Positions 14,133-26,495 of a DNA stretch of 36,855 nt are shown here, piece after piece. Below the pieces are notes generated by a model. It did no database searches and had not been told where the DNA came from. It saw only the letters and a list, made by a program, of their open reading frames with translations. The stretch covers positions 1-36,855 of the forward strand of contig DAOWFP010000074.1 in assembly GCA_030637895.1 (NCBI GenBank). The letters run 5' to 3'. The first letter of the stretch is position 1. Each line of letters opens with the position of its first letter. The position numbers and the translations under genes are program-made. This DNA is from Bacteroidota bacterium. GTDB taxonomy: Bacteria; Bacteroidota; Bacteroidia; Bacteroidales; GCA-2748055.

Positions 14133-14600
14133 TTAGAACTTCTTATATATCAATTCCAGAATCTCTGTCAAGGCAAGACTATCCACCTCGCTAAATGAAT
14201 CAAGGTGATCAGAATCAACATCAAAGATGGCCACAATCTCCCCGTTTGAATTATAAACTGGTAGTGTAATCTCGGATTTAGACCTGGAATCACAGCTTAC
14301 ATGTCCGGGGAAGGCATGGACATCGGGCACAACAACAGGTGCCCCCTCATTCAGAGCTGCCCAGCAAACTCCCTTGTCTTTTTCAAGTTCCTGACAGGCT
14401 ACGGGACCCTGGTAGGGACCCACCACTAATTTCCCCGATTTAGACAGGTAGAATCCTGTCCAGAAAAAGTGATCCATTTTATGGTGCAGCACCGCACAAA
14501 TACTTGCCATCCTGGCAAGTGGATCCTCAGTTTTCACAAGGAGTGATTCCAACTGCTTGTGTATTCTGGCGTAACGTCCTTCCTTTTTACTCTCCTCCAT
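14133..14600 (-). CDS. msrC: Free methionine-(R)-sulfoxide reductase (GAF fold)
   Basis: This 155-residue GAF-fold protein matches the free-methionine-(R)-sulfoxide reductase family (E. coli MsrC/YebR). The enzyme reduces free Met-R-SO in the cytoplasm with thioredoxin. All three family cysteines are present: C69 in GPYQGPVACQ, C79 in DKGVCWAA and C103 in HVSCDSRSKSE, the last being the expected catalytic position. The end FDVDSDHLDSFSEVD is also typical. It is transcribed divergently from prfC with promoters 8 bases apart. It fits the oxidative-stress content of the neighbourhood. Confidence 0.92.
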   Translation of the reverse strand: MEESKKEGRYARIHKQLESLLVKTEDPLARMASICAVLHHKMDHFFWTGFYLSKSGKLVVGPYQGPVACQELEKDKGVCWAALNEGAPVVVPDVHAFPGHVSCDSRSKSEITLPVYNSNGEIVAIFDVDSDHLDSFSEVDSLALTEILELIYKKF

Positions 14601-14624: not shown

Positions 14625-14632
14625 CAAAAATA
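14625..14632 (-). promoter_or_regulatory. -7 box for the fRMsr gene
   Basis: The minus strand reads TATTTTTG, an exact TAnnTTTG match, 24 bases before the ATG. It is back to back with the prfC box on the other strand. Confidence 0.55.
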
Positions 14633-14640
14633 GGAATTAT

Positions 14641-14648
14641 TATCTTTG
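14641..14648 (+). promoter_or_regulatory. -7 box for prfC
   Basis: The sequence TATCTTTG matches TAnnTTTG exactly, 16 bases before the prfC ATG, predicting a leader of about a dozen bases with AAGG next to the start. Confidence 0.65.
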
Positions 14649-14664: not shown

Positions 14665-16242
14665 ATGAAGTTAAAAGAAGAAATAGAGAGGCGGAGAACT
14701 TTTGCCATTGTCAGTCACCCCGATGCAGGTAAAACCACACTGACCGAGAAATTTTTACTTTTCGGGGGAGCCATCAATGTGGCCGGCGCTGTCAAGTCCA
14801 ATAAGATCAAAAAGACTGCCACTTCCGATTTCATGGAAATTGAGAAGCAGCGGGGGATTTCTGTGGCGACCTCTGTTATGGGCTTCGAATACGGCGGAAA
14901 GAAAATCAACATCCTGGATACACCAGGTCACCAGGACTTTGCTGAAGATACCTTCAGGACACTTACGGCGGCCGATAGTGTCATTATTGTGATCGATGGT
15001 GCCAAGGGGGTGGAGGCCCAGACCAGAAAACTTATGAATGTCTGCCGGATGCGAAAAACACCGGTGATGGTATTTGTTAACAAGCTGGACCGTCCGGCAC
15101 TGGACCCATTCGAGCTCATGGACGAGATCGAACAAGAACTGGAGATTCATGTACACCCTTTAAGCTGGCCCGTTAGTATGGGACCCGATTTCAGGGGAGT
15201 CTACAACCGCTTCGAAGGTAAATTTCGTTCCTTCAGCAGTAACAGCAAGCAGACTATTGGTGAAACGGTGGAATTCAATGACCTGGAAGACCCGGAATTT
15301 CAAAAGTGTATTGCACCACATTCCCAAGTTCTAAAAGAGGATCTTGAACTCATTGGAGGGGTCTATCCTGAATTTAACCGGGAAGACTACCTGGCTGGAA
15401 GCACGGCTCCGCTTTTTTTTGGAAGTGCCCTGAATAATTTTGGGGTCCAGGATATTCTGGATTGTTTTATCCAGATTGCCCCTTCACCCGGCATTATCGA
15501 GACTGAACAGCGAATGGTCGAGCCCTATGAAGATAAGTTTTCAGGTTTTGTTTTTAAGATCCATGCCAATATGGATCCCAATCACCGCGACCGGATTGCG
15601 TTCATTAAGATCGTTTCCGGCAAGTTTGAACGAAACAAAACCTATGTGCATGTAAGGAGTGGCAGAAAGATGAAGTTTTCAAGTCCCACCTCTTTTATGG
15701 CAGAGAAGAAATCCGTAATTGATGAGGCCTGTCCGGGCGATATCGTAGGAGTACATGATACGGGTAACTTTAAGATCGGCGATGCGGTTACGGAAGGGGA
15801 GAAGCTGCAGTTCCAGGGAATGCCCAGTTTTTCGCCTGAGATGTTTCGTTATGTGGAAAATAACGATCCCATGAAATTTAAGCAGCTGGCCAAAGGACTG
15901 GAGCAATTGATGGATGAGGGAGTTGCACAGCTTTTTATAAGTGTGGCCAACGGCCGGAAAATTATTGGTACAGTGGGCGCACTACAGTTTGATGTGATCC
16001 AGTACAGGCTTGAGCACGAATATGGAGCAAAATGCAGATATGAGCAACTCCCCATGCACAAGGCCTGCTGGATTGAAACAGATCACTTAGTGAAGCTGAA
16101 AGATTTCAGACTCAGGAAGTACCAGCAACTGGCTACCGATAAAGAAGGTCGCGAGGTCTATATGGCCGAATCGCCCTATGCCCTGCAAATGGCCCGTGAT
16201 AATTTCCCGGAGATCAACTTTCACTTCACATCAGAATTCTGA
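14665..16242 (+). CDS. prfC: Peptide chain release factor 3
   Basis: This 525-residue translational GTPase recycles RF1/RF2 from the ribosome after peptide release. G1 is SHPDAGKTT (17-25), the effector region includes DFMEIEKQRGISVATSVMGF, G3 is DTPGHQDF (85-92), and G4 is NKLD (139-142). The RF3-specific spacing after G3 (AEDTFRTLTAADSVIIVIDGAKGVEAQT) and the C-terminal domain (YEQLPMHKACWI) separate it from EF-G. Length equals the family norm. The gene appears to be monocistronic from its own promoter. Confidence 0.97.
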   Translation: MKLKEEIERRRTFAIVSHPDAGKTTLTEKFLLFGGAINVAGAVKSNKIKKTATSDFMEIEKQRGISVATSVMGFEYGGKKINILDTPGHQDFAEDTFRTLTAADSVIIVIDGAKGVEAQTRKLMNVCRMRKTPVMVFVNKLDRPALDPFELMDEIEQELEIHVHPLSWPVSMGPDFRGVYNRFEGKFRSFSSNSKQTIGETVEFNDLEDPEFQKCIAPHSQVLKEDLELIGGVYPEFNREDYLAGSTAPLFFGSALNNFGVQDILDCFIQIAPSPGIIETEQRMVEPYEDKFSGFVFKIHANMDPNHRDRIAFIKIVSGKFERNKTYVHVRSGRKMKFSSPTSFMAEKKSVIDEACPGDIVGVHDTGNFKIGDAVTEGEKLQFQGMPSFSPEMFRYVENNDPMKFKQLAKGLEQLMDEGVAQLFISVANGRKIIGTVGALQFDVIQYRLEHEYGAKCRYEQLPMHKACWIETDHLVKLKDFRLRKYQQLATDKEGREVYMAESPYALQMARDNFPEINFHFTSEF

Positions 16243-24172: not shown

Positions 24173-25387
24173 TCAGGGAATCAGAAGAGAACTGTCCCCG
24201 TAACTCAGGAAGCGGAATCCCTCCCCGAGCGCATAGTCATAGACTTTTTTCCAGTCTTCTCCTATCCACGCTGCAATCAAAAGCAGCAGGGTGCTTCCCG
24301 GCATATGGAAATTGGTAAGCAGACCACTGATGGTTCTGAAGCGATATCCCGGTACAATCATCAGCTGGGTGGAAAAGTGCAAATACTCCAGTTCGTGCTG
24401 TTCACAATATTCCAACAGGGCTTCGATACTCTCAGACAAAGGGATTTCCTGCGGTAAATTCTCATTGTCCCATTGCAGGATGGACAGTGTTGATGGGGCG
24501 GCCGGAGCCTGCTCCTTTATTTTTATACCCAGCCAGTAGAGCGATTCCAGACTGCGGGTACTTGTGGTGCCCACAGCAATCAATCCATCGCTTCTTTTCA
24601 ACCATTGCTCCAGAAAACTCCTGGTCACCACCACCAGTTCCGAATGCATGGAGTGGTCCCTGGCATTCTTCTCCTTTACAGGAACAAACGTGCCGGCACC
24701 CACATGGAGCGTTACATGGGCCAATGGGATTTTCTCCTGCTCCAGCTGCTGCATCATCTCACCTGTAAAGTGCAAACCTGCTGTGGGTGCAGCTACCGAG
24801 CCATTATTCAAACTGTATATGGTCTGGTAACGCTCCCTGTCGCTTTCCTCAGCTTTCCTGTTCAGATAGGGTGGGATCGGAGTGCTTCCCGACTGTTCAA
24901 TGATCTCTCCAAACGTCACTCCGCTTTGCTGCCAGCGAAACTCAACCTTGAATCCTTCACCGCTTCTTTCAATGAGATAGGCCTGCAACTTTAGCGCTGC
25001 ACCATTGATAGTGGTGTGCAAAGAGACCGGACCACTCTTCCATTTTTTTGCATTTCCAACCAGGCAAAGCCAGGTGGCTGTGGTTTCGGCCTGGAAGGAC
25101 AATTCATAGTCAGCAGGATTGATGGGCTCCAGGCAGAAAATCTCAATGCGTGCCCCTGTTTCTTTTTTAAAGTTGAGACGGGCCTGGATGACCCTGGTAT
25201 TGTTAAAGACCAACCATGCTCCTGAGGGCAAGTGTTCCGGCAAAGTGCTAAATCGGTCCTGTGAGATGTCCCCCTTCTCATAAAGCAATAATTTGGATGC
25301 TGATCTGTCGGCCAGAGGATACCTGGCAATGCTGGATTCGGGCAGCCTATACTTGAAGTTCTCAATATGGGTGCTTGGCTCAGGCAT
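24173..25387 (-). CDS. queA: tRNA preQ1(34) S-adenosylmethionine ribosyltransferase-isomerase
   Basis: This 404-residue QueA transfers and isomerises ribose from SAM to preQ1-tRNA, forming epoxyqueuosine. Landmarks are the N-terminal YRLPESSIARYPLADRSASKLLLY, VFNNTRVIQARL, the glycine-rich AAPTAGLHFTGEMM, HVTLHVGAGTFVPVK and the terminal LLTNFHMPGSTLLLLIAAW. It is longer than the roughly 350-residue norm because of a middle insertion near the AAPSTLSILQWDNENLPQEIP stretch, as seen in some Bacteroidota. It is transcribed divergently from rnpB with fused promoter boxes. Confidence 0.95.
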   Translation of the reverse strand: MPEPSTHIENFKYRLPESSIARYPLADRSASKLLLYEKGDISQDRFSTLPEHLPSGAWLVFNNTRVIQARLNFKKETGARIEIFCLEPINPADYELSFQAETTATWLCLVGNAKKWKSGPVSLHTTINGAALKLQAYLIERSGEGFKVEFRWQQSGVTFGEIIEQSGSTPIPPYLNRKAEESDRERYQTIYSLNNGSVAAPTAGLHFTGEMMQQLEQEKIPLAHVTLHVGAGTFVPVKEKNARDHSMHSELVVVTRSFLEQWLKRSDGLIAVGTTSTRSLESLYWLGIKIKEQAPAAPSTLSILQWDNENLPQEIPLSESIEALLEYCEQHELEYLHFSTQLMIVPGYRFRTISGLLTNFHMPGSTLLLLIAAWIGEDWKKVYDYALGEGFRFLSYGDSSLLIP

Positions 25388-25406
25388 GTTTTATGAATGA
25401 TGTCGG

Positions 25407-25414
25407 CAAAATTA
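25407..25414 (-). promoter_or_regulatory. -7 box for queA
   Basis: The minus strand reads TAATTTTG, an exact TAnnTTTG match, 19 bases before the queA ATG. It is the mirror image of the rnpB box, two bases away. Confidence 0.6.
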
Positions 25415-25416
25415 AC

Positions 25417-25424
25417 TAATTTTG
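25417..25424 (+). promoter_or_regulatory. -7 box for rnpB
   Basis: TAATTTTG matches TAnnTTTG exactly, 18 bases before the first P1 stem base. The primary 5' end would be near 25430, implying a short leader that is trimmed or left unpaired. Confidence 0.55.
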
Positions 25425-25442
25425 CATAGTTCTTTAAAATTT

Positions 25443-25770
25443 TGCAGTAGTTGATCCTGTCGCTGCAGGCTTCGGCCTGTGGAGGAAAGTCCGGGCAGCT
25501 AAGGGTACCGCACTGTTGAAAAACAGATGTCTGTGAGGGCATGGGTGCAAAGAAGAAAATAACCGCCTCCTCACGGAGGTAAGGGTGAGAAGGTGGGGTA
25601 AGAGCCTACCAGTGTGGCGGGTGATCGTTACAGCTGTTTGTCCTGCGGGCTGAAAGGCCATGTATACCGGCATTATAAAAGCTACCCGCTTCTGCCGGGG
25701 GGTAGGCCGCTTAGAAAAATGACAGGGATCCTTTAAACAGGATACAGAACCTGGCTTAACAACTACTGCA
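25443..25770 (+). ncRNA. rnpB: RNase P RNA, bacterial type A
   Basis: This is the catalytic RNA of RNase P, which matures tRNA 5' ends. The ends form a perfect 11-bp P1 helix (tgcagtagttg at 25443-25453 with caactactgca at 25760-25770). The universal core is present: ggaggaaagtccgggc (25481-25496, P4 5' strand and CRI), a gggtgagaaggtggggtaagagcctacc segment for P10-P12 near 25586-25611, and acagaacctggctta (25744-25758, P4 3' strand and CRV). Total length of about 328 bases is normal. A T-run follows immediately. Confidence 0.96.
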
Positions 25771-25777
25771 TTTTTTT
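25760..25777 (+). terminator. P1 strand plus T7 run ending rnpB
   Basis: Seven T residues (25771-25777) follow the 3' P1 strand. The stem partner is at the far 5' end of the RNA, so this is not a classic local hairpin. The T-run overlaps the stop codon region of the convergent gene. Confidence 0.45.
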
Positions 25778-26495
25778 ATTCTACAGCAGGTTTCCCAAAA
25801 AGAGCGGAATCCAGTGCTTTATTGAATTCAATGGATTCGAAGGTAATAGTACTGAAAAGCTGTCCACTCATTTTCGATCCCATATAGTGAGCCACAGGTA
25901 CACCCTTTATGGTTTTATAGTCTTTCATCTCCATTTCAATCTCAGTATCCATCCCGTTAACTGACTGACGTGTAATAACTTTAGACAACAGGGAGCTTTC
26001 CTTGGAGATAAAGATGACCATCTCATCCCCTTCAGCTTTGGTAAGTTTAATCTTATATGCAGATCCGTCTTCGCTGGTTCCTAGCAATTCAAGATTATTT
26101 CCCATTTCCTTATAGTTCAAGAGAGGACTGTCCATATTGGCCTGATCGAGGACAACTTTAATTTCATTAATTCCCATTTCCTTGGGTTCGGTAACCCCCA
26201 TGGCCGGGGCATAGGTCCAGCCTGTGGTGCCATTGTAAGTTGTGACCATCTGAGATCCCATTAAGGCCATTTCCATCCTGAAATTGCTGGGTCTGGCATG
26301 ATACATGGTCATCTCTGTCTCCATTCCCATAGCAACTATGTTTAGCTTACCTTTCATTACGGTGGAGGTGATATTTGACATTTTATCCTGGGCCGAAGCT
26401 TTGAAATGATCGTTTAGTATTTTATCCAGGTCCTGTGCTGCCAGGGAGCTAAGTGCAAAAGCTGCAAGAACGAGAGAAATAGTAAGTCTGCGCAT
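25776..26495 (-). CDS. LolA-like periplasmic protein
   Basis: This 239-residue secreted protein has a signal peptide (LVLAAFALSSLAAQ). The rest suggests the half-barrel fold of LolA/LolB and related outer-membrane lipoprotein-sorting proteins: repeated strands such as GKLNIVAMGMETEMTMYHARPSNFRMEM, TYNGTTGWTYAPAMG, YKIKLTKAEGDEMVIFISKESSLLSKVITRQ and IEMEMKDYKTIKGVPVAHYM. It is unusually methionine-rich. It is probably not canonical LolA but a member of the broader superfamily with unknown ligand. It sits 29 bases downstream of kdsA with its own -7 box. Confidence 0.75.
   Translation of the reverse strand: MRRLTISLVLAAFALSSLAAQDLDKILNDHFKASAQDKMSNITSTVMKGKLNIVAMGMETEMTMYHARPSNFRMEMALMGSQMVTTYNGTTGWTYAPAMGVTEPKEMGINEIKVVLDQANMDSPLLNYKEMGNNLELLGTSEDGSAYKIKLTKAEGDEMVIFISKESSLLSKVITRQSVNGMDTEIEMEMKDYKTIKGVPVAHYMGSKMSGQLFSTITFESIEFNKALDSALFGKPAVE

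Follow-up and report, generated by a model that had tools for sequence, protein, structure and literature searches.

A probable bidirectional promoter between a queA paralogue and rnpB in Bacteroidales, apparently taken over by the RNase P RNA gene after loss of its former partner

The 18-mer caaaattaactaattttg occupies positions 25407-25424 of the window (the whole stretch of 36,855 nt of Bacteroidales DNA analyzed here) and lies in the 56 bp that separate a queA-family gene, queA2, from rnpB. Each of its halves is an exact TAnnTTTG, the Bacteroidota -7 box, and the two boxes stand back to back. We think it very probable that this 18-mer forms the core of a housekeeping promoter working in both directions, one half of which was captured by rnpB, gaining a leader with it, after the loss of a gene hereafter called X, encoding a protein with DUF2027 and Smr. 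The features of the locus are the following:

24173..25387, minus strand: queA2, a divergent QueA paralogue of 404 aa (PF02547, 309 bits), with its start codon at 25387
25407..25414, minus strand: -7 box TAATTTTG of the putative queA2 promoter, an exact TAnnTTTG whose consensus positions are invariant in 17/17 genus loci
25415..25416, no strand: 2-bp spacer (ac), variable in its bases and fixed in its length (2 in 17/17 genus loci)
25417..25424, plus strand: -7 box TAATTTTG of the putative rnpB promoter (ancestrally, it appears, that of the DUF2027-Smr gene), an exact TAnnTTTG found in 17/17 genus loci
25444..25773, plus strand: rnpB, RNase P RNA class A (RF00010, 186.5 bits versus a cut-off of 100)

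The original prediction had described this site as two exact -7 boxes on opposite strands, 2 bases apart, and as perfectly palindromic. The first description is accurate. The second is accurate for the 8-bp arms, which are exact reverse complements, but not for the central "ac", which is not self-complementary; the 18-mer is thus an inverted repeat with a 2-bp spacer rather than a full palindrome, and among the loci of the genus the arms are perfect in just 5/17. A lone box carries little information, since the window holds 27 single TAnnTTTG boxes versus 23 expected. The window contains the double box in this register a single time, and 0/100 shuffled versions contain it.

The name queA given to the left-hand gene also needs qualification. 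Its product passes the QueA equivalog models (NF001140, 332.6 with a cut-off of 324; TIGR00113, 292 with a cut-off of 267), but most genomes of the family encode two QueA paralogues, of which the copy beside rnpB is the divergent, lower-scoring one (~310 versus 445 bits). In the window's own genome, an incomplete metagenome assembly (59% complete), queA2 is the sole QueA copy found. Because relatives carry a QueA of higher score elsewhere in their genomes, the enzymatic role of queA2 is uncertain. At the other end of the locus, rnpB finishes with a T run (window 25767-25778), 3 nt from the stop of a convergent gene at 25776-26495.

Conservation of both boxes between queA and rnpB, the check attached to the promoter reading when it was first put forward, came out in its favor. 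We compared 18 genomes of the genus, with rnpB detected in 15 and the locus cut by a contig end in 2 more, and found CAAAnnTA-N2-TAnnTTTG in the queA2-rnpB gap of all 17 loci. In the eighteenth genome (G003) there was no match to the double box and none to rnpB, and its sole QueA is the high-scoring canonical copy; the locus was therefore not found in that assembly. The consensus bases of the double box are invariant at 12/12 positions across the 17 loci, and the variable positions are the nn and the center. Mean identity in the genus alignment is 91% for the element, 41% for the left flank, and 66% for the leader. In the 14 genus loci whose sequence reaches far enough, the 100 nt preceding rnpB hold no other TAnnTTTG.

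The history of this arrangement can be followed in the sister genera. In two of these, g2 and g5, the genes run queA2 (-), X (+), rnpB (+). Here the double box separates queA2 from X, as CAAAATTAATTAAATTTG with a spacer of 2 in g5 and as CAAAAATACTAAATTTG with a spacer of 1 in g2, and rnpB has a single box of its own, 13-14 nt 5' of the RNA. In position and form, the putative X promoter of the sister genera matches the rnpB-side box of the 18-mer. In g6, queA2 and X diverge across CAAAATTAGCTAAATTTG or a form of it with one mismatch. X was found in 8/10 genomes from other genera of the family and in 91/119 genomes of the order, and in 0/18 genomes of the window's genus, two of them 98-99% complete. 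Ancestrally, then, the double box would have separated queA2 from the divergent DUF2027-Smr gene. The simplest account of these gene orders is that the loss of X joined its half of the bidirectional promoter to rnpB, which, having no upstream box of its own in the window's genus, would use the former X half. Such an outcome is not inevitable where rnpB adjoins queA2. In another lineage, labelled Bacteroides sp. (L216, L217, L235, and L241), the two genes also lie head to head and X is undetected, yet the gap is wider and rnpB retains a box, TAATTTTG or TAATTTCG, directly 5' of the RNA, that is, a separate promoter.

These comparisons bear on the proposal that transcription of rnpB and of the queuosine gene is coupled on purpose, by co-regulation or mutual exclusion, both products acting on tRNA. 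The head-to-head queA2-rnpB pair is indeed kept throughout the genus. However, it derives from a queA2/DUF2027-Smr promoter through the loss of one gene, the Bacteroides sp. loci have the same pair with no fused promoter, and the queA copy concerned is a paralogue of putative role. Given that queA2 first had a different partner and encodes the divergent QueA paralogue, we regard deliberate coupling as improbable. The link suggested by the original prediction is probably accidental, the partner in the sister genera and in the order being the DUF2027-Smr gene, and the synteny of the sister genera rules out a functional queA-rnpB linkage as the origin of the arrangement. An apparent functional coupling, here two tRNA genes on one promoter, can thus be a by-product of gene loss.

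We extended the comparison to the order; the named organisms among the matches are Bacteroidales and related Bacteroidota, mostly uncultured assemblies. The scan covered 60 queA2-X pairs, which are phylogenetically non-independent samples. Exact boxes with a spacer of 2 were present in 22/60 pairs (shuffled mean 0.01), and allowing at most one mismatch in 40/60 (shuffled mean 0.22, maximum 2). A spacer of 1 was seen in 8 pairs, and every remaining spacing in 2 or fewer. On these sequences, we conclude that the double box between queA2 and X is ancestral in the order. At queA2 loci without detected X, the plus-strand box was found in 0/45 and the minus-strand box in 10/45, a pattern that would follow from each half serving the gene on its side; X was detected here with a single X protein as query, so that diverged copies may be missed. 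In other orders of the class, those with transcript-start maps, queA2 stood beside X in none of 15 loci. The spacing of 2 bp is no general rule. Genome-wide in the order, double boxes with spacer 2 gave 140 matches and those with spacer 3 gave 141 (reversed-pattern controls, 73 and 75, respectively); this parity led us to reject a general preference for 2 bp and makes the fixed spacing particular to the queA2-X locus.

The same counts allow us to weigh a chance juxtaposition of two AT-rich boxes. Such an origin would fit the unremarkable frequency of single boxes in the window and the parity of spacers 2 and 3 across genomes, but not the failure of 100 shuffles to produce the double box, nor its presence in every one of the 17 genus loci amid otherwise diverged flanks, nor its recurrence at spacer 2 in two-thirds of the queA2-X pairs. 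Conservation already refutes it, and we consider its probability negligible.

The inverted repeat could instead, or in addition, be an operator, as had also been proposed; it would then serve a dimeric regulator acting on both genes. Its near-symmetry and fixed 2-bp spacing across the order are what such a site might show, and 10 bp, close to one helical turn, separate the centers of the halves. Against this, conservation falls exactly on the bases of the -7 consensus, the gap offers no alternative consensus box for rnpB, and the right half is missing where queA2 has no detected X. The arms do not covary at the nn positions (0.41 versus 0.38 permuted in queA2-X pairs, P 0.24), and besides being rarely perfect in the genus they are so in 5/40 double boxes of the order. 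An operator should keep its symmetry, whereas promoters predict the pattern found, with the consensus kept and the symmetry not. With symmetry neither kept nor covarying, an operator is not needed, and we hold it to be unlikely. Two independent promoters would nevertheless not account for the spacing being fixed across the order, and an additional bound factor may play a part. In a subgroup of the queA2-X pairs (L228, L243, L258, L236, and L239), the core is fully symmetric, CAAAAGTAC[GT]TACTTTTG, or near it.

Two other double boxes were noticed. At window 14625-14648, a divergent pair of exact -7 boxes has an 8-bp spacer, and the identical 24-mer occurs in genome G011. This pair is flanked by what we take to be a GAF-domain-like gene (14133-14600, minus strand) and a prfC-like gene (14665-16242, plus strand). 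A second spacer-2 double box conserved in the genus, CAAAAGTATTTATATTTG, is found at locus position 1501-1518 in L022, L027, L029, and L034-L038, between a mutY-like gene and a gene for an HU-like DNA-binding protein (names given from sequence).

Under the favored reading, that of a bidirectional promoter core, the primary sigma factor of Bacteroidota would recognize each half as a -7 element. The boxes, their spacing and conservation, the loss of X and the lack of another consensus box are seen in the sequences themselves; the starts, use of the boxes by polymerase, occlusion and any function of the leader are inferred. The box of Flavobacterium psychrophilum spans -12 to -5 (PMC9723704), and the same rule gives the predicted starts listed here together with two motifs of the rnpB leader:

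25402..25403, minus strand: predicted queA2 transcript start
25429, plus strand: predicted rnpB transcript start
25429..25439, plus strand: boxA-like leader GTTCTTTAAAA, resembling ATAGTTCTTTGAAAATATTGAA of the 16S rRNA leaders of family members
25437..25444, plus strand: AAATTTTG, one mismatch from a -7 box, possibly (and speculatively) a relic of an old rnpB promoter

The predicted starts are ~27 bp apart, and by analogy with E. coli (PMC12825309) it is sterically plausible that polymerases placed there would overlap. In E. coli, exclusion counts only with one direction strongly active, and basal activity was too low for competition in five tested bidirectional promoters (PMC12825309). As the two sites abut in the 18-mer, a polymerase at one should obstruct a second at its neighbor. 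Cells usually contain much RNase P RNA, so that rnpB could limit queA2; strong initiation toward rnpB may in effect cap the output of its neighbor.

The predicted rnpB start precedes the 5' end assigned by Rfam by 15 nt, which would give the RNA a leader of ~15 nt, and a G is present at this position in 17/17 genus loci. The boxA-like motif is degenerate in some of these (L007, L009, and L015). Across rnpB upstream regions, G[ATC][TA]C[TA]TT[GA]A occurs in 12/51 (shuffled mean 0.34). A boxA-like motif just 5' of rnpB was also seen in the order, in L039, L040, L042, L053, and L056, and some rnpB loci with such a motif have no consensus -7 box directly upstream. We considered whether rnpB might in truth use AAATTTTG at 25437 as its promoter and rejected this, since its first base departs from the consensus and the start would cut into helix P1.

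A bolder version of the model would treat the paired boxes as a unit whose spacing is under selection across the order, with one polymerase choosing its direction; in the window's genus, rnpB would then set the output of queA2, and the boxA-like leader would place RNase P RNA under an elongation control of the rRNA kind. The strict 2-bp spacing is a clue that the choice of direction may be under selection. We put this version forward tentatively, as a possibility with the odds against it.

The simpler model, of a bidirectional promoter core with one captured half, describes a case in which an essential ribozyme RNA gene captured a promoter and the steps can be traced, from an ancient bidirectional promoter through the loss of a partner to the rewiring of rnpB, with all stages apparently readable in living relatives. 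The literature that we searched gave nothing direct on the promoters of rnpB or queA, on boxA with rnpB, or on bidirectional promoters in Bacteroides, and no description of bidirectional promoters in Bacteroidota.

Known systems offer three points of comparison. The boxA of rRNA leaders is an antitermination site that binds NusB/S10 and aids elongation. The rnpB leader GTTCTTTAAAA is like it in resembling the GTTCTTTGAAAAT that 16S leaders within the family carry; unlike that boxA, it is degenerate in several genus members, and it is the likeness of sequence that identifies it. The 18-mer is like the promoters of the Bacteroidota primary sigma factor (PMC7366714, PMC9723704), for which TAnnTTTG is expected at about -7, in that both halves have the exact consensus at a suitable distance from both genes. 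It differs in having its boxes doubled back to back and in showing no -33 motif: no conserved TTG (or TTTG) was seen at that distance in the genus alignment, and likewise in johnsoniae. With the bidirectional promoters of E. coli and other prokaryotes (Warman et al. 2026, PMC12825309), the 18-mer shares a short, near-symmetrical core with core elements close together on both strands, divergent starts (predicted here), and presumably the exclusion of one polymerase by another. The E. coli promoters have a shared or overlapping -10 element and starts commonly 10, 18, or 23 bp apart, whereas the 18-mer has two complete Bacteroidota -7 boxes with a 2-bp gap between them and more widely separated predicted starts, and thus falls outside that type. 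It also differs in that one of its arms would serve a ribozyme RNA, having been captured from a gene since lost.
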